From: Ewingella americana ATCC 33852
Lineage (GTDB): Bacteria; Pseudomonadota; Gammaproteobacteria; Enterobacterales; Enterobacteriaceae
Length of the DNA: 64,000 bases
Direction of reading: 5' to 3'
Assembly: GCF_000735345.1 (NCBI RefSeq)
Contig: NZ_JMPJ01000053.1
Location: 62,001 to 126,000 of the forward strand
Both the position numbers and the translations under genes were made by a program. Under the pieces are notes generated by a model. That model searched no databases and was not told the origin of the DNA. It saw only the letters and a program-made list of their open reading frames with translations. The number at the start of each line of letters is the position of its first letter. Positions within the stretch are counted from its first letter, which is position 1. This document shows, piece by piece, positions 1 through 32,534 of this stretch.

Positions 1-194
1 CTGGGAACAGTTCGATCACCATCAATGTGGAAGTGTGGGTGAAGAAGGTCTCTTCTGAGCCGATTGGTCAGCGCTACCGCGCCACCGAGGCCGTGTTTAC
101 CTACGTGGCGGTCGATGACGAAGGTAAGTCGCGCAAGCTGCCGGATGGCAGAAGCAACTTCAGCGTGGACTCTGACGGCGTGTCGCAAGACTAA
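1..194 (+). CDS. yciA: Acyl-CoA thioesterase YciA, 3' end only
   Basis: The gene is cut by the window edge; the reading frame enters at base 3 and runs 63 codons to a TAA at 192-194. The visible residues (GNSSITINVEVWVKK near the start, later TYVAVDDEGKSRKLP) are the C-terminal half of a hot-dog-fold thioesterase and resemble E. coli YciA, which hydrolyses a broad range of acyl-CoAs in the cytoplasm. It converges on tonB and shares a terminator with it, the same arrangement as in E. coli. The N-terminal catalytic part lies outside the window, so activity cannot be judged from what is visible. Confidence 0.88.
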   Translation, partial: GNSSITINVEVWVKKVSSEPIGQRYRATEAVFTYVAVDDEGKSRKLPDGRSNFSVDSDGVSQD

Positions 195-22432: not shown

Positions 22433-22517
<85 letters not shown>

Positions 22518-22838
22518 TCTTAAATACTCCTGCATTACCTCTCAAAAAAACCAACCTAAAATAGAATATCGCGCTGGGAAGGATGGAGAAGCTTCGATTG
22601 AAGGTTCGAGCCGAGCGAAGCGAGACAGCGTTGCGCAGCAACGACCCGAAGGGCGAGGCCAGCGGCCGAGTAATCCTTCCCCCACCACCATCTCAAAGCA
22701 TCAAGTCTGAGTTCCTTCTCAACTATTAAAAACCATTCCCTAATTACTTCCGAGTCTGCTTTTTTCTCTGATTTTATTTCATACTCACCGTAATCCAAGC
22801 CTTCCCCCCAATCCCGAAGAGAAGACCTGATTCAATCC
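22518..22838. other. Spacer between tRNA-Tyr and the exporter genes
   Basis: A 321-bp stretch without a credible protein gene. It contains the interrupted copy of the tRNA-Tyr 3' end (22601-22693) and an inverted repeat GGGAAGGAT (22576-22584)/ATCCTTCCC (22673-22681) that would fold the whole insert into one structure. No clear terminator for the minus-strand exporter gene was seen. Confidence 0.55.
22601..22693 (+). repeat. Duplicated tRNA-Tyr 3' end interrupted by a 63-bp GC-rich palindromic insert
   Basis: AAGGTTCGA (22601-22609) and ATCCTTCCCCCACCACCA plus TCT (22673-22693) together reproduce the last 27 bases of tRNA-Tyr and three bases beyond it. They are split inside the T-loop by 63 bp (22610-22672). 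The insert has stacked small palindromes such as CGTTGC-GCA-GCAACG and CCC-GAA-GGG. It recalls the E. coli tyrT locus, where repeats beginning with the terminal 19 bp of tRNA-Tyr follow the tRNA. Confidence 0.85.
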
Positions 22839-24938
22839 CTATCCGAGCTTAATCACCCGGTCTGCCGTTTCTATGGTGGAAGGCCGATGGGCGATGAAGA
22901 TGCGGGTGATATCCAGTTCCCTGATGGCCTGATTGATTTTGGATTCATTATCCAAATCCAAATGGCTGGTCGCTTCATCAAGGAACAGAATTGCCGGGCG
23001 GCGATAGAGCGCGCGGGCAATCAATAGCCGCTGTTTCTGCCCGCCGGACAAGCTGTTGCCGAGTTCGCTTATCAGCGTTTCATAGCCCATCGGCATCTTT
23101 TCGATATCAGCATGAATGTTGCAGCGGCGGGCACAGTCAACAATCCGCGCCTCATCCTTCTGCTCATCAAAGCTGGCAATATTCTCGCCAATCGAACCGG
23201 CAAACAGCGTGTCGTCCTGCAACACGCAGGCTATGCAGCTGCGGTAATTATTTAGACCGGCGGTGGTGATATCCATGCCGTTAATCAGCACCCGGCCCTG
23301 CGTCGGAGCCAGCAACCCGGTCATGATCTTCATTAGCGTGGTTTTACCCTGTCCCGACGGCCCGACAATTGCCACGCTCTCGCCCGCCGCGACGGACAGA
23401 TTCAGGCCGTTGATTAATGGCGCAGATAGGCTGTCATACTGGAAAACCAAATCGCGCACGTCGAGCGACGCCGCCTCGCCGCCGCGCAGTAACTCGCGCT
23501 CCGGCAGGCTTTTCTCGGTGTCAGTCAGCGCAATATCCGCAATACGGTCGCGATGCAGCGAAAGCATCCGCAGCTGTAAAACCATGTTGAGCAGGTTGGC
23601 CGCACGTTCGGAGAATTGGCCGCGATAGGTGTTGAAAGCGACGAACATCCCCAGCGTCATATGGCCGTCAATCACCTGACTCGCCCCCAGCCACAGCAGC
23701 GCCACCTGATCGAGAGTGGCAATCAGCGTGTTGCCGCCGGTGAACATCATCTCGAACTTGGTTTTGCGCACCGTGGCGTTGGCGTTATCAATGTTCATGT
23801 TGAGCCAGAAGTTAGCGCGCGTCTTCGACAGCCCCAGCGCCTTCAGCGTACTGATGCCATACAGGGTTTCCATAAAGTGGGAACCGGCACGGGCGCTTTT
23901 GACGATTTGCTCCTCGGACACCTGCCGATAGGCGTTATAAGTGGAAAGCCTAAAGATGACGTAAATTGCGGTGAAGCCAAGAATCACCCAAATCAGCCAG
24001 CCGCCGTACAGCACCATCATCACAATCAGGCCGATGGACATGATGCCGTCGATAATACTGTTGACCACGTTGGTGGTCAGCGTGGTGCGCAGCGTGTCGA
24101 GAGAGGTAAAGCGCGACTGAATATCGCCGAGTTTGCGCTTCTCGAAATAGTCCAGCGGCAGCTTGAGCAGGTGGTCAAACAGCCGCGCTTTCCACTGCAC
24201 GTCAATCAGCGTACTCATCACCAAAGAGGTCCAAGCACGCAGCATGCTCACGCCTGTGCGGAAGATGATAAAGAACAGCAGCCCGAGGCAAATCAGAGTC
24301 AGCAGGTCGGGGTCTTTGGCCGGGATCACGTGGTCCATTACCAACTGCATGCCCACCGGCAGCAGCAGGTTGACCGACTCGATCATCAGCGACAGGCAGA
24401 AGATCTTGGTCAGCGCGGGGATTAAGCCGCTGACATTGCCCATCATTTTGCGCAGATTTAGGCGAACGCGCGGCTTTTCCGAAGTAAATCCGCTGTCCGG
24501 CCACAGCTCCAGCGCCACGCCGGTGAAATGCTCCGACACCTCGCGGATACCCAGCGAGCGCTGGCCAAAGGCCGGGTCGTGAATAATCACTTTGCCCTGC
24601 TTCACCGCCACCAGCACCACGAAATGGTTAAGATCCCAGTGCAGAATGCAGGGGGTTTTCAGCGCATTCAGCTCATCAATGTCGAGCTTCAGAGCGCGGG
24701 ATTTCAGCTCCACCGAGGTGGCAATATCCATCAGGGTACGCAGGGTCGCGCCACGGGATGAAATGCCAAAACGCTGGCGCAGACTCTGCAAATCAACATG
24801 CTTGCCGTGGTAACCGCAGACCATCGCCAGACAGGCCAACCCGCACTCGGCGGCCTCGGTTTGGATGATTTGCGGGACTTTATGACGGAAGCCGAAATGC
24901 AGACTGTTTGCCAGTTCGCGCACGTTATCGAGATTCAT
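22839..24938 (-). CDS. C39-peptidase ABC exporter (CvaB/MchF-like) for a leader peptide
   Basis: A peptidase-containing ABC transporter that cuts double-glycine leaders and exports the mature peptide. The 699-residue length matches CvaB (about 698). The N-terminal C39 protease has oxyanion Gln26, catalytic Cys32 (QTEAAECGLAC), His105 (LNHFVVL) and Asp121 (IHDPAFG), all intact. A membrane domain of about six segments follows, then an ATPase with Walker A GPSGQGKTT (about 526), signature LSGGQKQR (about 630) and Walker B ILFLDEATSHLD (about 650). It overlaps the upstream fusion-protein gene by 14 bp, so the two are co-transcribed. TolC would be the outer-membrane partner, encoded elsewhere. Confidence 0.95.
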   Translation of the reverse strand: MNLDNVRELANSLHFGFRHKVPQIIQTEAAECGLACLAMVCGYHGKHVDLQSLRQRFGISSRGATLRTLMDIATSVELKSRALKLDIDELNALKTPCILHWDLNHFVVLVAVKQGKVIIHDPAFGQRSLGIREVSEHFTGVALELWPDSGFTSEKPRVRLNLRKMMGNVSGLIPALTKIFCLSLMIESVNLLLPVGMQLVMDHVIPAKDPDLLTLICLGLLFFIIFRTGVSMLRAWTSLVMSTLIDVQWKARLFDHLLKLPLDYFEKRKLGDIQSRFTSLDTLRTTLTTNVVNSIIDGIMSIGLIVMMVLYGGWLIWVILGFTAIYVIFRLSTYNAYRQVSEEQIVKSARAGSHFMETLYGISTLKALGLSKTRANFWLNMNIDNANATVRKTKFEMMFTGGNTLIATLDQVALLWLGASQVIDGHMTLGMFVAFNTYRGQFSERAANLLNMVLQLRMLSLHRDRIADIALTDTEKSLPERELLRGGEAASLDVRDLVFQYDSLSAPLINGLNLSVAAGESVAIVGPSGQGKTTLMKIMTGLLAPTQGRVLINGMDITTAGLNNYRSCIACVLQDDTLFAGSIGENIASFDEQKDEARIVDCARRCNIHADIEKMPMGYETLISELGNSLSGGQKQRLLIARALYRRPAILFLDEATSHLDLDNESKINQAIRELDITRIFIAHRPSTIETADRVIKLG

Positions 24939-26211
24939 TTATCGGCCCCACCACACTTTTCTTCATGCTGTAATACGGAGATAGCATCCACTGATAGAGC
25001 GGGCGTTTTTCGAGGAACATCGTAGACTCCGCTTTCATGCCACTGGATAAATTGAGCGTTTCGCCATGCCAGTTGAGCTGGCTTTTATCTAAGGAGACGA
25101 TCACTTTGTAATAAGGCCCGCTGACCGTGCCATTGGGGTTTTTCGGCGCGCTGGAGTAGGAATTCAGCTCCTGCTCGGAGACCGGCGCGGAGGAAACAGA
25201 TTCTACACGCCCGGGGAACTGGCCATATTTTTCAAATGGATAGGCTTCATAGCGAATATTGATCTCTTCCCCTGGTTTGACGTAAGGCACGCTCTCATTT
25301 GGCAACCATGCCACCAAGAAGAAAGGCGAATTCTTGGCCGGAACCAGCTGCGCCAGACTGTCACCGGCATTGACCATCTGCCCCGGCGTCACGCTGAGTG
25401 AGGAGATCTTGCCGTCGGTCGGCGCGGTGATCAGCAGCGAGCCTTTGGCATCGGCCTCGGCCAACTGGCGGTCTAAATCATTGCGCTGCACGCCGTATTG
25501 CGAAATTTGATTGTCGAAATCGGCGGCGCGGGTCACCAGCTCGCTGCGCAAGTTGGTTATCTGCAATGACTCTTGGATAGATTGGGTGTTGAGGCTCTGG
25601 AACGAGGTTTGTTGCTGGTAGAACAGGTAGCGCTGGTTATTGAGCTGATCGGTGTTAATCAGCCCTTTACGCTGATAAGCGCCGTAGTTCTGCATGCTTT
25701 GCTTCATCGCATCCAGCCCCTGCTGCGCCGACGCCACCATGTCCTGGGACACCTTGTGCGCCTTCTCATACTGCTCGAGCTGCTGCTGCAAATTGTCCAG
25801 CGTCGTGCGCTTGTTGTTTTGCAGTTGAGTGATGATGGTGTCTATCTGGTCGCGCTGTTTATTGATTGCTGACAGCGTGGTGGTGCTGACATTACCGGCC
25901 TGCGTCACCCGGCTGACATCAATTTGATACAGCGGCTGGCCCTTTTTGACCGTTTTGCCGGTTTCCACCATTAAATTGGTCACCACGCCCTGCTCCGGGC
26001 TGAATAAATTAATGCTGTGCGGCTGGGTGATCACTTCACCACTGACATTAATTCGGCGAGTGTAATTGGAGAAAATCAAGAAACTAAGCAGTGCGATAAG
26101 AAATAGCGCGGTCAATGAGGTGACTACCCAAACGGGCCATCCCGCTAATAGCAGCGCCTTACCGGCCCAGTGGTTTTGTTGATGTTCATTCACTTCTTTA
26201 CGAAAGAGCAT
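24925..26211 (-). CDS. HlyD/CvaA-type periplasmic membrane fusion protein
   Basis: This protein links the ABC exporter to an outer-membrane channel. The 428-residue protein starts MLFRKEVNEHQQNHW, a typical CvaA/MchE-like start. It has one membrane segment (about 28-50), a split lipoyl domain (SPEQGVVTNLMVETGKTVKKGQ and ITAPTDGKISSLSVTPGQMV), a long coiled-coil hairpin (about 115-260) rich in Gln and Leu, and a C-terminal beta-barrel. It is the first gene of the two-gene export operon and is divergent from the leader-peptide gene. Substrate is inferred from the neighbour. Confidence 0.93.
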   Translation of the reverse strand: MLFRKEVNEHQQNHWAGKALLLAGWPVWVVTSLTALFLIALLSFLIFSNYTRRINVSGEVITQPHSINLFSPEQGVVTNLMVETGKTVKKGQPLYQIDVSRVTQAGNVSTTTLSAINKQRDQIDTIITQLQNNKRTTLDNLQQQLEQYEKAHKVSQDMVASAQQGLDAMKQSMQNYGAYQRKGLINTDQLNNQRYLFYQQQTSFQSLNTQSIQESLQITNLRSELVTRAADFDNQISQYGVQRNDLDRQLAEADAKGSLLITAPTDGKISSLSVTPGQMVNAGDSLAQLVPAKNSPFFLVAWLPNESVPYVKPGEEINIRYEAYPFEKYGQFPGRVESVSSAPVSEQELNSYSSAPKNPNGTVSGPYYKVIVSLDKSQLNWHGETLNLSSGMKAESTMFLEKRPLYQWMLSPYYSMKKSVVGPINESR

Positions 26212-26224
26212 CTAGCTTAACCCT

Positions 26225-26264
26225 CAATGAACATGATGTTGAAACCTCTGGATAATGTTCATTG
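26225..26264. repeat. 10-bp inverted repeat in the exporter leader
   Basis: CAATGAACAT (26225-26234) and ATGTTCATTG (26255-26264) are perfect arms around 20 bp, beginning 13 bp upstream of the fusion-protein start. Position suits an operator overlapping the promoter or an RNA hairpin upstream of the ribosome-binding site. Confidence 0.7.
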
Positions 26265-26299
26265 AAAGATAGTCAGCAGTTGGATAACTGGCAACTGTG

Positions 26300-26320
26300 A
26301 TTCATCTGAAATAGATGAAT
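26300..26320. repeat. 8-bp inverted repeat upstream of the exporter operon
   Basis: ATTCATCT-GAAAT-AGATGAAT is a perfect palindrome with a five-base centre. It resembles a dimeric-regulator operator; no family was recognised. Confidence 0.5.
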
Positions 26321-26692
26321 TTATTGGTAAAGTTGACCACTGCTCTGTTTATCGCCAATGTCATAATATCTTCCCAGCAATCCAATCACGCAGCGTTAAT
26401 ATTTCCTTTGCTGATTATCTGCTAAGTAATAGCGAAATATTTATATCCACACAGACTTAGAAATAAATAACAACACTTGGCGCTGGGCGGTTAAAAATAG
26501 AACTTTGCGTAACGTTCTCATCAGGTTACTTAATAATCATCAATAGTGATAAATGGCGGGTAAATATAAAAACTCAAAAATGTTTAATTTTAATTTATTA
26601 CATATCAACAATTTACATAAATATTACATTTATGGAGATTATTCCTAATCACCTCAGCCGCTGAGTGTCCTAGGCTTAAGTCACATGAGGAC

Positions 26693-26773
26693 ATGAGTAC
26701 GAAAACAAATATCTTTCTTACTCCTGTATTCATCGGATCTCAGGAAGTCGGGATCTCAGTTTTCACAAACTAA
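26693..26773 (+). CDS. Possible 26-residue peptide upstream of the microcin-like gene
   Basis: ATG at 26693 with GAGG two bases upstream (a tight spacing) opens 26 codons (MSTKTNIFLTPVFIGSQEV and seven more) ending 14 bp before the leader-peptide gene. It has no double-glycine leader and resembles nothing recognised. Proximity suggests translational coupling if real, but a frame of this size can arise by chance. Confidence 0.2.
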   Translation: MSTKTNIFLTPVFIGSQEVGISVFTN

Positions 26774-26787
26774 GAGGATGACCCAAG

Positions 26788-26979
26788 ATGAAACAGTTAA
26801 CAGAACGTGACATTGAAATGGTTAATGGTGCTGGTTGGTCGGAAGATGTAAATAAAGTTGCTGACCGCCTGTCAAACTTTGGTCAAAAAGCGGTAGATGA
26901 TACCGGCAATGCGGTGAATAAGGCTTACGGCCAAATTTCAGACGCGCTGGGTAGAGCTAACGATTACCTGACCTCCTAG
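26788..26979 (+). CDS. Double-glycine-leader peptide precursor, putative microcin-like
   Basis: The 63-residue precursor starts MKQLTERDIEMVNGA-G. This fits the class II microcin/bacteriocin leader pattern M(K/R)xLxxxxIxxVxG(G/A), with cleavage predicted after Ala15. The predicted mature part is about 48 residues and starts GWSEDVNKVADRL. It has no Cys, net charge about -2 and an amphipathic helical pattern, with no long hydrophobic stretch. AGAGGA precedes the ATG by about nine bases and a strong terminator follows. It lies divergent from a C39 exporter and its fusion protein. No known family was recognised; antibacterial activity is unproven and signalling or adhesion are alternatives. Confidence 0.8.
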   Translation: MKQLTERDIEMVNGAGWSEDVNKVADRLSNFGQKAVDDTGNAVNKAYGQISDALGRANDYLTS

Positions 26980-27042: not shown

Positions 27043-27071
27043 AGGCGCTCACCTCGGTGAGCGCCTTCTTT
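27043..27071 (+). terminator. Terminator of the leader-peptide gene
   Basis: A 9-bp perfect stem GGCGCTCAC/GTGAGCGCC (27044-27065) with CTCG loop followed by TTCTTTTT on the plus strand only. Confidence 0.88.
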
Positions 27072-27115: not shown

Positions 27116-28183
27116 CTAAACCCCAACATTGCGTTTGTCGGTTTTGGTCATGCTGGCCTTGAGTTTGCCGATTAACTCACTGCGAAAATCCCCCAGCTTC
27201 GGCTTATCCCCTTCCAGCCAAGGCAGCGGGCGGCAAAGCTCCATGGTCTTGATACCCAAACGGGCGGTCAGCAGCCCGGCACCAATCCCCTGAGCCGCAC
27301 GGGCCGAGAGGCGAGCCGCCAAGTCTTGCGACATCCAGTCCATGCCGACTTCGCGCACCAGCTCAGAAGCCCCGGCAAAAGCGATATTTAACAGCACCAG
27401 TCGGAACAGGCGCAGTCGGCTGAAATAGCCCAACTCAATGCCGTACAGCACCGCGATGCGATTCACCAGACGCAAATTGCGCCAAGCGATAAAGGCCATA
27501 TCCACCAGCGCCAGCGGGCTGACGGCGATCATCAGCGCCGACTCGGCCGCCGAGTTGCTGATTTCGCGTCGCGCCTGAGCGTCCAATACTGGCTGAACCA
27601 GCCGGGCGTAAAGCTCGACCACTTCGCGATCATTCTGGGTTTCATGCAGAGAAGCCTGCCAGCGCTGCAAGGCCGGATGGCTTTTATCCAGCCCGGCCTG
27701 CCCGGCCAATTTTTCGCAGAACGCGCGCCCCTGCCCTAAACCGTGGCTGTGCAGCAAATCGCGAGCAACGTCGCGCTCGTCGGCACGCTGGCGCAGGCGA
27801 TACAAACGCCGCCACTCGGTGAGCAGTGAACCCACGCCCGCCACCACGATCAGGCCACCGGCGGTGCAAGCCCCCAGCGCTACCCAATCCTGCTGAACCC
27901 ACGCGGTATGCACCCATTCTACACCCTGAGCTATCACGCTGACGCCAAACACGGCGGCACCGAGACGCACCATTTTGCCCCACAGGCTGCGGCGCGGCTT
28001 CAGCGCGCGGTTAATCACCGCCTCGGCTTCGCCCTCTTGCTGCTCAATCTCAGCCTCGCTGGAAACCGGCAGAAAGCGCTCGGCCTGAACGCCGTCAAAC
28101 GCCTGCCCAGCGCGCAGAACCGGCTGTTCCGGCTCCTTAATACTCTGTTCGAAATCGATACGCGGTTTGATAGGTTCGCTCAT
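27116..28183 (-). CDS. ycjF: YcjF family inner-membrane protein (TIGR01620/DUF697)
   Basis: A 355-residue membrane protein, close to E. coli YcjF (353). The N-terminus is acidic and Pro-rich ([13 protein letters not shown]), with two membrane segments around residues 70-125. The DUF697-like C-terminal half contains [22 protein letters not shown]. Function is unknown; it is the last gene of the psp-linked operon and is induced with Psp in E. coli. Its start overlaps the ycjX stop by four bases (ATGA). Confidence 0.93.
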
Positions 28184-29577
28184 CGCATTTTATCTCCCAG
28201 TAAAAACTCCATCACGGCGTCCAGCCGAATGTGCGGCAAAGGCGCGTCCACGCTGGTTTCGCGCGGGCGGAACTCATCAAAATGGAACCCCTGCTGCTGC
28301 CAGAACGCCGCGCCCGGCAGTCTGGCAGGCACTTCTCCGGGGAACACGGTCAGCGGCGCGCCGTCTTGCAGGCGATGGCCCTTCAAGGCAGGCACTGACT
28401 GCCCCTGATATTCCACAATCCCAGTTTCGGTGGCCTGCACCGAGGCCAAGCCCGCGCAGTCCATACTGATCCCTTCAAAGGCGGCGTTCTGCCACGCCTC
28501 CTGCACCAACTGCTGGAGCAGCGACACCAGATTGGCATGCTGATCGCCCGTAATATGGTCAGCCTTGGTGGCGGCAAACATCAGTTTGTCGATGCAAGGG
28601 TTGAACAGGCGGCGGAACAGCGTGCGTTTGCCATAGTGGAAACTCTGCATCAGCTGCGTCAGCGCCAGCCGCATGTCGTTAAAGGCCTGCGGCCCGCTGT
28701 TTAAGGGCTGGAGGCAGTCCACCAACACTATTTGGCGGTCAAAACGGACAAAATGGTCTTTATAGAAGCCCTTGACCACTGACTGGCAGTAATAGTCAAA
28801 CCGCGCGCGCAGCATGCCCAAATTACTGTTCTTGTCAGCCTGCGCCAGTTGGGCGTCGCTGTACTTTTGCATCTCAGGCCAGGGGAAGAATTGCAGCGCC
28901 GGTGCGCCGGCCAAGTCACCCGGCAGCACGAAGCGCCCCGGCTGAATGAAGTGCAAACCTTCCTGTTTGCAGCGATGCAGGTAGTCGGTGTAAGCCTGCG
29001 CAATAGCCGCCAGCTGGTTTTCGTCCGCCGGAGCCAAAGGGTCACATTGCTGACAGAGTGCTAACCAAGGCTTGGCCCATTCGGCGCGATCCCCTTGCAA
29101 CAGGCCCGCCATCTGCCGCGACCAGTCGAGATAGTTCTGCTCCAGCATCGGCAAATCCAGCAGCCATTCGCCGGGATAGTCGACAATTTCCAAATAAAGG
29201 GTGGAAGTATCTTTGAAGTGGCGCAACAGCGACTCGTTGGAGCGATAGCGCAGGGCCAATCTAATCTCACTGACGCCGCGCGTTGGGGTCGGCCAGTTCG
29301 GCGGCGTGCCGTGCAGCTGGGCGATGCCTTCATCATAGGTAAAGCGAGAGATACCGAGGTCGCGCTGCGGCACGCGCTTGACGCCAAGCAGGCGCTCTTC
29401 GCGCGCGGCGGAGAAAAGGGGTAAACGTGCGCCGCTGTGTAAGTGCAGCAGCTGATTGACGAAGGCGGTAATAAAGGCGGTTTTGCCGCTACGGCTAAGA
29501 CCGGTCACCGCGAGACGCAGGTGCCGGTCCATACCGCGATTGACCAGTGAATTAAACTCGTTTTGTAGTCTTTTCAT
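28180..29577 (-). CDS. ycjX: YcjX family P-loop GTPase-like protein
   Basis: A 465-residue DUF463 protein with the P-loop [10 protein letters not shown] (about 30-38) and conserved blocks [36 protein letters not shown] and FAATKADHI, the last resembling a G4 guanine-specificity motif. GTPase activity is reported for a family member; the cellular role is not clear. The ATG at 29577 (MKRLQNEFN) gives exactly the E. coli length and has GGAGAG just upstream. It overlaps pspD by 26 bp. Confidence 0.94.
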
Positions 29578-29800
29578 TGCTCTCCGTGGCGTAGCGCCCA
29601 AATAACGCGGTCAAAATTCTTTTGAACAGGGGCTCTAATAATAGTGCTAAAACATAGCGCAGTGGACCTTTTCCTACCACGCCCAGCACGCGAGCGGCCA
29701 TCCCAGCGGGCACGAAAGTCAGTGCGACCATGACGGCGAATCTGAACACTTTCTTCAGCAGGCTGCGATTGCCCGGCAGCGAGGAAGTCAGAGTACGCAT
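29552..29800 (-). CDS. pspD: Phage shock protein D
   Basis: A small 82-residue membrane-associated protein of the Psp envelope-stress operon. Hydrophobic segments (FAVMVALTFVPAGMAARVLG and PLRYVLALLLEPLF) match the layout of E. coli PspD (73 residues), though sequence identity is modest. The ATG at 29800 is preceded by AAGGAG at about eight bases; an earlier in-frame ATG lacks such a site. It lies 87 bp after pspC and overlaps ycjX. Its biochemical role is unknown. Confidence 0.82.
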   Translation of the reverse strand: MRTLTSSLPGNRSLLKKVFRFAVMVALTFVPAGMAARVLGVVGKGPLRYVLALLLEPLFKRILTALFGRYATESNEKTTKRV

Positions 29801-29887
29801 AAATACACTCCTTTTGCGGGGAAAACCCTTAGCGGATGGAAGGAAAGGCCCGAAGCCGCCGCACGGCAGCTTCGGCAAATAGGGACA

Positions 29888-30247
29888 TTACAACTGGCGG
29901 AAACGGCTGCGAACGCCAAAGGTTTCCGAGGTCACGTAACGCTCAACCTGGCGTAAACGCTGCTCGCTGGCTTTTAATTCGCGGTCGGCTTCATCCAGCA
30001 AATTTCTTGGTGACGGCTGATTTTCATCATCAAACTCGTGGGCTGGTGCCGGTTCTAGCACAAAGCACAGCACGATGTAGGCCACCACGGTAAACATAAA
30101 CAGGCCGAAGAAAATCGACAGTACGGCCATCACGCGCAGCAGCATTACCGGCACGCCAAGGTAGTGAGCAAGCCCGGCCAGCACGCCTTTAAACACGCCC
30201 TCTTCCGGCACGCGGTACAGCTTACGTTCTGCAAGACTTCTCGCCAT
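29888..30247 (-). CDS. pspC: Phage shock protein C
   Basis: PspC is an inner-membrane sensor and toxin-like partner of PspB that recruits PspA under secretin or membrane stress. The 119-residue protein has the PspC domain KLYRVPEEGVFKGVLAGLAHYLG and a strong membrane helix (MLLRVMAVLSIFFGLFMFTVVAYIVLCFVLEP), followed by a charged C-terminal tail with a leucine-zipper-like stretch (ELKASEQRLRQVERYV). Its first base coincides with the last base of pspB. Confidence 0.95.
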   Translation of the reverse strand: MARSLAERKLYRVPEEGVFKGVLAGLAHYLGVPVMLLRVMAVLSIFFGLFMFTVVAYIVLCFVLEPAPAHEFDDENQPSPRNLLDEADRELKASEQRLRQVERYVTSETFGVRSRFRQL

Positions 30248-30474
30248 TATGACTGCCTCCAGCTTGGGTGCTCGGCATCCAGAATCTCTTCCAGCGCCTG
30301 AATTCTTTCGCGCATGCGGCGCGCGTCTTGGGTTAACTGCGCGAGATTTTGCTTCTCATGCTGGGTTAACTGATTACCACTTTGCGATCGGTTGCTGTAG
30401 TGCAGCCACAACCAGATAGGTGCGACAAAAAGCACAAAGATGGTCAGTGGAATGGCTAAAAACAGGAAGCTCAT
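30247..30474 (-). CDS. pspB: Phage shock protein B
   Basis: A 75-residue protein with one N-terminal membrane helix (MSFLFLAIPLTIFVLFVAPIWLWLHY) and a cytoplasmic coiled coil (HEKQNLAQLTQDARRMRERIQALEEIL), as in E. coli PspB (74). With PspC it senses membrane stress and releases PspF from PspA. It is separated from pspA by 87 bp containing a strong hairpin and is immediately followed by pspC. Confidence 0.96.
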   Translation of the reverse strand: MSFLFLAIPLTIFVLFVAPIWLWLHYSNRSQSGNQLTQHEKQNLAQLTQDARRMRERIQALEEILDAEHPSWRQS

Positions 30475-30526
30475 TGCATCTCCTTATGAGTCTTATTACT
30501 GCCGGGAACGACATTTATCCTGCAAC

Positions 30527-30550
30527 AACCTGCCTGCGAACAGGCAGGTT
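30527..30550 (-). repeat. Strong hairpin between pspA and pspB
   Basis: A perfect 10-bp stem AACCTGCCTG/CAGGCAGGTT with CGAA loop. On the minus strand it is followed only by GTTGC, so it is likely an attenuator or mRNA stabiliser that lets pspA exceed pspBCD; T residues follow on the other strand. Confidence 0.75.
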
Positions 30551-30561
30551 TTTCAAGCGAA

Positions 30562-31233
30562 TTACGCGTCCTGATTGCCTTGCATCTTAGCTTTCAATGC
30601 CGCGATTTGCGCACTGATTTCATCGTCAGCTTTCAACTCAGCAAACTGCTGGTCCAGCGACTTCTTTTTACCAATGCTAACGCTTTCTGCTTCAGCTTCC
30701 ATGTGGTCGATACGGCGTTCGAACTGCTCGAAACGCGCCATGGCTTCATCAATCTTACCGCTGTCTAACTGGCGGCGAACGTCGCGTGAAGAAGAAGCTG
30801 CCTGATGGCGCAGCGTCAGCGCCTGCTGGCGTGCACGGGTTTCGGTCAGTTTATTTTCCAGCTCACCAATTTCCGACTTCATGCGATCCAGCGTCTCTTC
30901 AACCACGGTAACTTCATTTTTCAGCGTGGCGACCAAGTCAGCCAGCTTTTGCTTTTCAATCAGCGCGGCGCGAGCCAAATCGTCTTTGTCTTTACGCAGA
31001 GCCAGCTCGGCTTTGTCCTGCCATTCGGCCTGCTGCGCTTCACCCTGCTCGATACGGCGGTTCAGCTGTTTCTTTTCCGCTAAGGCGCGAGCCGAGGTAG
31101 AACGCACTTCCACCAGCGTATCTTCCATTTCCTGAATCATCAGGCGCACCAGCTTCTGTGGATCTTCGGCTTTGTCCAACAGGTTGTTGATGTTGGCATT
31201 TACGATGTCAGCGAAACGAGAAAAAATACCCAT
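30562..31233 (-). CDS. pspA: Phage shock protein A
   Basis: PspA is the ESCRT-III-related effector that binds stressed inner membrane and, when free, inhibits PspF. The 223-residue protein starts [25 protein letters not shown], its amphipathic membrane-binding helix. The rest is a long coiled-coil bundle. The start at 31233 matches the family; an in-frame ATG 17 codons upstream is rejected. Upstream is a near-consensus sigma-54 promoter and divergent pspF, the E. coli arrangement. Confidence 0.97.
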
Positions 31234-31362
31234 AGTCAAAATTCCTCTTTGATTCTGTTGTCCTCCGGTAACCCCGGGCAACAAGTCATAAAACGTCCGG
31301 CCAAGTGTTACCGGTGAATACTGCCAGCCATTAATCAGTTAACGACTGCGTGTAATACCTAT

Positions 31363-31379
31363 ATCAAATCCCGTGCCAA
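31363..31379 (-). promoter_or_regulatory. Sigma-54 promoter of pspABCD
   Basis: Minus-strand sequence TTGGCAC-GGGAT-TTGAT fits the -24/-12 consensus TGGCAC-N5-TTGCW apart from one base in the -12 element. It lies about 130 bp upstream of pspA and faces it. PspF, encoded divergently, is the activator. Confidence 0.85.
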
Positions 31380-31523
31380 CTTTTTTAATTCTTATATCAT
31401 ATTGAATTATAGCGATTTTTATTTTTCCGTCCATTTAGCGATATTTGACGTATGATTAAATTAACTAAAAATTAGTTTTTTTCACCACCTCAAAACCGCC
31501 AATTAGCATCAAAGGGAGCAAGG

Positions 31524-32534
31524 ATGGCCGAAACTACCGACAACCTATTGGGCGAAGCCAATGCGTTTATCGAAGTATTGGAGCAGGTTTCTCAATTGGC
31601 GAAGCTTAATAAGCCGGTGCTGGTGACCGGCGAGCGCGGCAGTGGCAAGGAGCTGATCGCCCACCGCCTGCACTATCTGTCTCCGCGCTGGCAGGGGCCG
31701 TTTATCTCCTTGAACTGCGCGGCGCTGAATGAAAACCTGCTCGACTCCGAGCTGTTTGGTCACGAGGCGGGCGCCTTTACTGGCGCGCAAAAGCGCCATC
31801 TTGGGCGATTCGAGCGCGCCGACGGCGGCACCCTATTTCTTGACGAGCTAGCCACCGCGCCAATGCTGGTGCAGGAAAAGCTGTTGCGAGTGATTGAGTA
31901 TGGGCACTTGGAGCGCGTGGGCGGCAGCCAGCCGCTACAGGTGGATGTGCGTCTGGTCTGCGCCACCAACGACGACCTGCCCGCGTTAGCCGCCGAGGGG
32001 AAATTCCGCGCCGACCTGCTCGACAGGTTGGCTTTCGACGTGGTCCAGCTGCCGCCATTGCGCGAGCGCCAGCAGGACATCATGCTGTTGGCCGAGCACT
32101 TCGCCATCCAGATGTGCCGCGAGCTGTCTCTGCCGCTGTTCCCCGGCTTCACCCCTCACGCCAAGCACACTCTGCTGACCTATCGCTGGCCGGGCAACGT
32201 GCGTGAGCTGAAAAACGTGGTGGAGCGCTCGATGTACCGCCATGGCAGCAGCGACTTCCCGCTCGACAACATTATTCTTAACCCTTTTGCTCGCCATAAC
32301 GCGGCCTCTGAGGAGCCTGCACCTGAGACTTCCTCCGCCAGCGCTTTACCCACCCTGCCGGTGAATTTGAAGCAGTGGGTCAACACGCAGGAGAAGCAGT
32401 TAATTGAGCAAGCCTTGCAGCAGGCGCGATTTAATCAGCGCAAAGCCGCCGATTTGCTGGATGTGACTTATCACCAGCTGCGCGGAATGCTGAAGAAACA
32501 TGATATTCAGGTGAAGGGCGAGGAGAACGGCTAA
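31524..32534 (+). CDS. pspF: Sigma-54 enhancer-binding activator PspF
   Basis: PspF is a AAA+ activator of psp that lacks a receiver domain and is instead inhibited by PspA. The 336-residue protein has Walker A GERGSGKE, the sigma-54-contacting GAFTGA loop (EAGAFTGAQKR), Walker B GGTLFLDEL and an arginine-finger region. A C-terminal Fis-like helix-turn-helix (FNQRKAADLLDVTYHQLRGML) follows a linker. It is divergent from pspA with 290 bp between them for activator sites. Confidence 0.96.
   Translation: MAETTDNLLGEANAFIEVLEQVSQLAKLNKPVLVTGERGSGKELIAHRLHYLSPRWQGPFISLNCAALNENLLDSELFGHEAGAFTGAQKRHLGRFERADGGTLFLDELATAPMLVQEKLLRVIEYGHLERVGGSQPLQVDVRLVCATNDDLPALAAEGKFRADLLDRLAFDVVQLPPLRERQQDIMLLAEHFAIQMCRELSLPLFPGFTPHAKHTLLTYRWPGNVRELKNVVERSMYRHGSSDFPLDNIILNPFARHNAASEEPAPETSSASALPTLPVNLKQWVNTQEKQLIEQALQQARFNQRKAADLLDVTYHQLRGMLKKHDIQVKGEENG

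Follow-up and report, generated by a model that had tools for sequence, protein, structure and literature searches.

A leader-peptide export cassette with a putative RcsB-type promoter behind phage-shock genes in Ewingella americana

Organization of the cassette

We analyzed a window of 64,000 nucleotides (the whole stretch of DNA under study; Ewingella americana ATCC 33852, contig NZ_JMPJ01000053.1, positions 62,001 to 126,000) for a cassette in which the genes of a C39-peptidase exporter and its membrane-fusion partner lie opposite a small gene for a leader peptide. An earlier note, made from the sequence alone, had described the cassette as microcin-type secretion machinery. Our analyses showed that peptide and exporter are conserved together, and the main addition to the note is a putative promoter of RcsB-type geometry before the peptide gene. 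The cassette comprises the following features, with positions counted in the window.

22839..24938, minus strand: C39-peptidase ATP-binding cassette (ABC) exporter of the CvaB/MchF type (peptidase-containing ABC transporter, PCAT), 699 aa, from Pfam domains and catalytic residues
24925..26211, minus strand: HlyD/CvaA-type membrane-fusion protein, 428 aa, with Pfam HlyD_D23, HlyD_3 and Biotin_lipoyl_2 above cut-off
26788-26979, plus strand: peptide gene, an open reading frame (ORF) of 63 codons divergent from the exporter operon
26788..26832, plus strand: double-glycine-type (Gly-Ala) leader MKQLTERDIEMVNGA, 15 codons, aligned with 18 other leaders
26833..26976, plus strand: 48-residue core, predicted to form a hydrophilic amphipathic helix, from hydropathy, helical moment and substitution ratios
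26634..26647, plus strand: RcsB-type box GGAGATTATTCCTA before the peptide gene, 11/14 against the published RcsAB consensus
26671..26676, plus strand: putative -10 element TAGGCT at the 22-bp spacing of rprA, from box geometry
26266..26294, minus strand: putative promoter of the fusion-protein and exporter genes, TTGCCA-17-TATCTT, with conserved -10 region
26296..26309, minus strand: weaker RcsB-like site TCAGATGAATCACA upstream of that promoter, with five conserved box bases and 23 bp to CTATCTT
27043..27066, plus strand: intrinsic terminator of the peptide gene, a 10-pair stem followed by a T-run
22433-22517: tRNA-Tyr beside the exporter end of the cassette

The Peptidase_C39, ABC_membrane and ABC_tran domains of the exporter all scored above their Pfam cut-offs in a single chain. 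Q26, C32, H105 and D121 are intact, as the earlier note had read them, and Walker A, LSGGQ and Walker B motifs are also present. The same quartet was read in all 30 relative exporters (L031-L060). The solved structures of the bacteriocin transporter 4ry2 (E 4.3e-87) and of ComA (8hf4, E 2.2e-76) were matched over nearly the full length, and plasmid copies annotated MchF and CvaB were about 57% identical among the 40 of 1060 records listed. By its domains and its homology to PCAT and ComA, the exporter groups with CvaB and MchF and is a PCAT of the CvaB type.

The fusion-protein gene, CvaA-like as the note had said, overlaps with the exporter gene by 14 bp, and the divergent gene of 63 codons with a double-glycine-type leader is present as described. 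Also the claim that the cassette holds all machinery for microcin-type secretion except TolC stood, with TolC-type proteins coded elsewhere in the genome (TIGR01844 above cut-off at two places, on contigs C65 and C56). The C39 ABC transporter with Cys32/His105/Asp121, the membrane-fusion protein and a genomic TolC are hence in place as components of a class II microcin system. At the terminator position, relatives carry a hairpin-like stretch of different sequence, as judged by eye.

Conservation and selection of the peptide

The earlier note had named the co-occurrence of peptide and exporter as a check. Fifty of 197 relatives encode an exporter at E ≤ 1e-130, with up to five candidates scored per genome. 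The peptide was found (E ≤ 1e-27) in all seven of these with an exporter identity of at least 94% (the G005 exporter is truncated where its contig ends), and of the 43 with exporter identities of at most 70%, none has it at E ≤ 1e-20. In a scan of named genomes, the best 80 of 580 relatives gave 79 loci, of which 30 (L031-L060) were analyzed; as some of these loci stop close to the exporter, a peptide located further away may have escaped detection. Here, the peptide lies beside all nine exporters of at least 83% identity and beside none of the 21 of at most 75%. The nine comprise eight loci with exporter identities of 93-96%, from Rahnella, 'Hafnia psychrotolerans' and one uncultured member of the Enterobacterales, and Rouxiella aceris (exporter 83%), in which the leader differs by one residue and the core has diverged. 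In 14 of the 21 more distant loci there are 19 leader peptides in all, with leaders of this type and different cores, and seven loci have none by the pattern used; ORFs judged to be chance matches (L033, L037, L049, L054, L060) were excluded from these counts.

All six genomes of the genus, our own included, encode the peptide. Among 392 genomes from the family, strong matches (E ≤ 1e-30) occurred in 12, i.e., the six of the own genus, five of a second and one of a third. Five further genomes gave weak matches (E 3.5e-4 to 0.0064), four of which cover profile positions 1-17 or 1-27 only, the leader region; the fifth, a G074 peptide, covers positions 1-59 (E 3.5e-4). Genome and locus sets overlap, and the counts of 6/6 and 8/8 are not independent samples.

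Two of the three conditions under which the earlier note would fall were checked, and neither applied, as peptide and exporter co-occur and the peptide frame is under purifying selection. Across nine sequences, the ratio of nonsynonymous to synonymous substitutions (dN/dS, Nei-Gojobori) is 0.11, with 0.109 in the leader and 0.113 in the core; the exporter and the fusion protein have ratios of 0.031 and 0.046, respectively. The underlying sequence pairs are not independent. In the Rahnella-type loci, with exporters of 93-96% identity, precursors are 79-86% identical to that of the window (50-54 of 63 residues) and cores match in 36-39 of 48. A second cassette of genomes G000 and G001, with exporters of 95% identity, has two peptides in each genome, with precursors 58-65% and cores 50-58% identical.

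A putative RcsB-type promoter

In E. coli, RprA is described as a direct target of RcsB (PMC7418988), and TaAGaatatTCcta is given as the RcsAB consensus (PMC4325325). RcsB is coded in the same genome (457 bits versus a cut-off of 235 bits), and the Rfam model of rprA matched six of nine genomes, all six of the genus (five above cut-off). In each of the six, a 14-base box (TAAGAGTATTCTTA twice, TAAGACAAATCTTA three times, TGAGACAAATCTTA once) stands exactly 22 bp before CTAGTATT and agrees with the consensus in 9-12 of 14 positions. Upstream of the peptide ATG, an island is conserved in otherwise diverged DNA that consists of GGAGATTATTCCTA, 22 bp and CTAGGCT. It thus resembles the rprA promoter in its 14-bp RcsB-type box, in the 22-bp spacing and in the CTAG at the -10 region. 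It differs in that rprA makes a small RNA, whereas the cassette gene codes for a peptide with an export leader, and in the agreement of the box, 11/14 versus 9-12/14. The peptide gene hence has an RcsAB-like box at the rprA distance, as expected for an RcsB-activated promoter.

In the window, the site before the peptide gene is the only one with a box of at least 10/14 and a spacing of 22 or 23 bp to CTA. With a box of at least 11/14, 22 bp and CTA, eight matches were found in 909,570 bases (the window and the 30 loci, both strands counted), all of them before the peptide gene. They belong to the window and to seven of the eight Rahnella-type loci, each with 11/14 and 22-bp spacing. Nine of 11 additional loci (the further set, which shares some genomes with the first) have a box of at least 10/14 with this spacing before the peptide. 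Sibling genes were scanned over at most 300 bp upstream, namely 20 fusion genes (L040-L060 minus L057), 16 of the 19 leader peptides of L040-L060 and five of L146-L148, and none of them has the box with the spacing.

On the exporter side, a looser site, TCAGAGTAATCGCG followed by 22 bp, was seen by eye in five of the nine relatives L031-L039. L031, L032 and L035 have similar sites, that of L032 with a change in one of the five conserved bases. R. aceris has TAAGATTATTCGTG with 23 bp before its exporter operon, likewise by eye, and the loose rule holds in 10 of the 11 loci of the further set. Only this conservation supports the exporter-side site, because the loose rule is common and finds three sites in the 64-kb window. 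A 1.2-kb scan gave two promoter-like sites versus a mean of 3.1 in shuffled sequence, and the match to TTGCCA-17-TATCTT alone therefore means little.

Several further points weigh against Rcs control. The promoter rule was fixed after the site had been seen, so that the counts are a test of specificity and not blind, and the loci are related. At a threshold of 11/14, four of the six rprA boxes would go unnoticed. In L032, the peptide site is degenerate (10/14, TTAGG), likewise in L181. R. aceris, with its nearly identical leader, lacks a box at this spacing before the peptide; it has a 10/14 box match 63 bp before the ATG, without the rprA-type spacing. With these points counted, we still regard Rcs control of the cassette as probable, judged by box sequence and spacing.

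Properties of the precursor and its core

The leader follows the microcin pattern, as seen in comparison with MRTLTLNELDSVSGG and MREITLNEMNNVSGA of a colicin V-family control locus. NGA directly precedes the core in 10 of 10 cassettes, and the precursor hence has the GG-or-GA leader ending of class II microcin precursors. The precursor gave no convincing match in Pfam or NCBIfam, and no copy of the peptide was present in a plasmid collection.

The grand average of hydropathy (GRAVY) of the core is -0.70 in the window and ranges from -0.57 to -0.72 across 10 family members. Among 30 other leader-peptide cores, GRAVY is positive in 27 and near zero in two (-0.09, -0.07). One candidate core of the own genome, rich in Gly, Asn and Arg, is even more hydrophilic (-0.88), which weakens hydrophilicity as a distinction. 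The full-length helical moment of the core peaks at 98.5 degrees in the window, 98.0 degrees in L035 and 100.0 degrees in R. aceris, and in each of the three none of 5000 shuffles reached as high a moment. The moment is kept in R. aceris, although its precursor is only 53% identical to that of the window. An 11-residue period in three turns corresponds to 98.2 degrees per residue, as in helices built of 11-mers. The core may be likened to the 11-residue-periodic helix of perilipin 4, which is described as amphipathic and weakly hydrophobic (PMC5889406, PMC8064757); this is an analogy and not a claim of homology, as the core has no strict 11-residue repeat.

The amphipathic helix was also considered as a unique mark of this peptide and rejected, because 12 of the 30 other cores likewise exceed at least 999 of 1000 shuffles in amphipathic moment. 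The peptide is hence set apart by low hydrophobicity and conservation, not by its helix.

Search for an immunity gene

We scanned the cassettes for small membrane ORFs that might confer immunity, with an ATG start, a ribosome-binding-like motif, 40-250 codons and a hydrophobic stretch, within 600 bp. This strict scan found no such ORF in any of the 10 cassettes, i.e., it gave no adjoining cognate immunity gene, a defining component of class II microcins. A relaxed scan gave none in the window and stray ORFs in four of the 10 cassettes, none common to all. Outside the two large genes, the 10 cassettes have 103 small ORFs of at least 30 codons, among which the peptide alone recurs in all 10. The most frequent of the other ORF groups recur in at most seven. 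They comprise the ycjF end, ORFs of 36-39 codons or less that run antisense to the peptide gene or to its promoter, opposite-strand ORFs where the fusion gene starts, and ORFs that lie past the exporter. A survey of class II microcins screens genes of 30-250 aa, the three nearest on each side, for immunity (PMC9746304). Taken literally, its size rule is passed by the third gene downstream, a PspD-like ORF of 108 aa at a distance of 2.6 kb.

The scans have limits that reduce the weight of this result. In the colicin V-family control locus, the strict scan missed the annotated cvi and instead gave an unannotated membrane ORF of 51 aa beside the bacteriocin gene; the relaxed scan gave both. Among 26 leader peptides at 18 other loci, the strict scan found any such ORF beside six, and four of these six ORFs are themselves leader peptides, so that just two of 26 have an adjoining non-leader membrane ORF. 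With the relaxed scan, a membrane ORF lies beside 13 of the 26. The missing immunity gene is thus a weak argument, because sibling loci often lack one too and the control was imperfect, and we rejected its absence as proof that the peptide is not a microcin.

Many of the exporter loci L040-L060, from Enterobacterales, have amphipathic or glycine-rich leader peptides without an adjoining immunity-like ORF in the strict scan, and perhaps these peptides form a wider non-microcin class.

Further exporters and leader peptides of the genome

The own genome also codes for two other C39 exporters of this family, on contigs C76 and C66 (L145 and L146; 65% and 61% identical); like the RcsB-type promoter sites, they are additions to the earlier note. 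Beside the C66 exporter lie two glycine-rich leader peptides with quickly diverging cores, and beside that of C76 the pattern used found no leader peptide. A profile of 19 leaders matched eight places in the genome at E ≤ 10. One match (C40:74123) was dropped as it lies inside a 348-residue frame, which we take to be FliG-like, and seven plausible leader peptides on six contigs were kept, among them the window peptide and the two at C66. The other four candidates (L169 on C67, L170 on C18, L171 on C40, L172 on C73) are on contigs without an exporter, the exporters being on C53, C66 and C76 of this draft assembly. The leader end of the C18 candidate, EIEMVNGAGL, is nearly identical to DIEMVNGAG of the window peptide. 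The exporter may hence carry more than one substrate. In a Serratia sp. locus (L041), two exporters, one of them cut by the locus end, lie within 14 kb with four leader peptides between them.

Genomic neighborhood

Past the cassette, the window has a gene run at 27116-32534 with DUF697 and YcjX-like genes, the PspD-like ORF and PspC; PspC scored above its family cut-off, the PspD-like ORF (108 aa) below. The DUF463 and DUF697 genes, assigned to these Pfam families by search, we take to be ycjX and ycjF, and further genes of the run are presumably pspB, pspA and a divergent pspF. The cassette thus lies directly behind phage-shock (psp) genes, in an envelope-stress neighborhood. The pair ycjX-ycjF adjoins the cassette in all nine relatives (L031-L039).

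The other flank is less constant. The earlier note had stressed the position beside a tRNA; tRNA-Tyr does adjoin the cassette in the window, and this neighbor turned out to vary among relatives and is incidental. The tRNA-Tyr/purU flank was found in the window, L031 and L039, and purU without a tRNA match in L032. Within 6 kb downstream of the exporter, tRNA and purU probes gave no match in L033-L038, and L036 has a porphobilinogen synthase gene at this place instead. As the tRNA flank varies, we do not count the tRNA as a component of the system. A mobile element at the tRNA was considered and rejected, since ycjX-ycjF is constant in the nine relatives and it is the other neighbor that changes. 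Directly after tRNA-Tyr lies an RtT RNA (22562-22690, plus strand; RF00391, 110 bits), within which the 3' end of the tRNA is repeated. The tRNA-like partial repeat is this RtT RNA, and no integrated element is needed to explain it.

Discussion

The best explanation of the cassette as a whole is a dedicated type I export system under Rcs control, whose peptide acts at the surface, in the matrix or at a membrane; we would put this reading at a probability of about one half. RcsB, the response regulator of envelope stress, would switch on the peptide gene and probably also the exporter operon. The C39 domain would then cleave the precursor behind Gly14-Ala15, and the 48-residue peptide would leave the cell through the ABC exporter, the fusion protein and the TolC of the genome. 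Very probably, the peptide is exported by the neighboring exporter. Once released, it may fold as a weakly hydrophobic, full-length amphipathic helix and would most likely act at an extracellular interface, and not in the manner of a classical class II microcin that has an immunity protein of its own. The odds that its role is one other than that of a microcin appear balanced. Our first choice would be a function at surface, matrix or membrane during envelope stress, and our second an unusual microcin.

The cassette shares with the colicin V (microcin V) and microcin H47 systems (CvaAB, MchEF) the C39 ABC exporter with its HlyD-type partner. In these systems the leader likewise ends in GG or GA, and TolC is described as a fifth component (PMC9746304). 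Unlike in these systems, no adjoining immunity gene was found, the core is hydrophilic and genus-conserved, the peptide stands in its own unit opposite the exporter and its promoter appears to be of RcsB type. The name Rahnella does not occur in the main texts of three microcin surveys or screens (PMC9746304, PMC13174018, PMC11494933) and of a Serratia paper (PMC13101503). Elsewhere, Rahnella is named as a target genus (PMC11634061), and for a Rahnella strain an antiSMASH cluster is likened to microcin E492 (PMC10946135), which could not be related to the cassette. Among the titles listed (12 of 14 papers) on microcins, the Rcs phosphorelay, RcsB and type I secretion, none dealt with Rcs control of a microcin cassette.

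A class II microcin is nonetheless the strongest competitor. The exported peptide would kill or inhibit relatives, and immunity might be provided elsewhere or by the exporter, or be unneeded in a producer without the receptor. The closeness of the exporter to MchF and CvaB, the leader pattern and the presence of adaptor and TolC all agree with this, and as sibling peptides also mostly lack an adjoining immunity-like ORF (two of 26 have a non-leader one), its absence here (0 of 10 cassettes have one in the strict scan) counts little. Against a microcin stand the hydrophilic core, which is conserved genus-wide at a fixed locus, and the precursors, which are more alike here (79-86%) than in the sister cassette (58-65%) at similar exporter identity; also the missing Pfam or NCBIfam match speaks against it. 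We hence consider a microcin possible and rather unlikely. The microcin-type reading of the earlier note thus stands for the export cassette and is weakened for the peptide. We see no justification for classing the cassette with the class II microcins, because an immunity gene was looked for and not found, within the limits of the scans, and activity would be an inference; what can be said is that it works like that machinery.

Less likely still, the exporter could be a shared hub for several leader peptides; the neighboring peptide would then be just one of its substrates, and conservation would concern the hub. Seven plausible leader peptides on six contigs, four of them on contigs without an exporter in the draft assembly, and the nearly identical leader end of the C18 candidate point this way. 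The two further exporters of the genome could serve other peptides, though, and the neighboring peptide co-varies strictly with this exporter. Finally, a signal sensed by the same species, like the leader-peptide pheromones of Gram-positive bacteria, would fit conservation within the genus and the lack of an immunity-like gene beside the cassette, but is improbable, as no dedicated receptor gene was seen beside the cassette (neighbors are of ycjF/ycjX and purU types), the peptide ORF alone recurs in all 10 cassettes and pheromones are generally shorter than a 48-residue helix.

For the preferred reading of surface, matrix or membrane action, the cyanobacterium Synechococcus elongatus offers a precedent. 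Its small double-glycine proteins EbfG1-4 are described as needing the C39-peptidase transporter PteB for secretion and as having a role in biofilms (PMC4997328), i.e., as leader proteins exported by a C39 system for a purpose other than killing. The likeness is one of description; the cyanobacterial proteins are four, are co-transcribed and are under other control.

We may speculate, with a probability clearly below even, that in Rahnella and close relatives a microcin-type exporter has come to serve the Rcs response, and that on envelope damage the cell makes and exports a hydrophilic amphipathic-helix peptide to coat or modify its own surface, matrix or vesicles. If so, the cassette would be an example of a wider class of helix-type leader peptides without immunity genes in Enterobacterales that have been filed as microcins. 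The cassette is also a warning that searches which mine genomes for nothing but leader and exporter may list non-bacteriocins among the microcins. With its conservation throughout the genus, its putative RcsB-type promoter, its psp neighbors and no immunity gene found beside it, the cassette provides a testable case of C39 machinery that may also serve envelope stress or surface biology.

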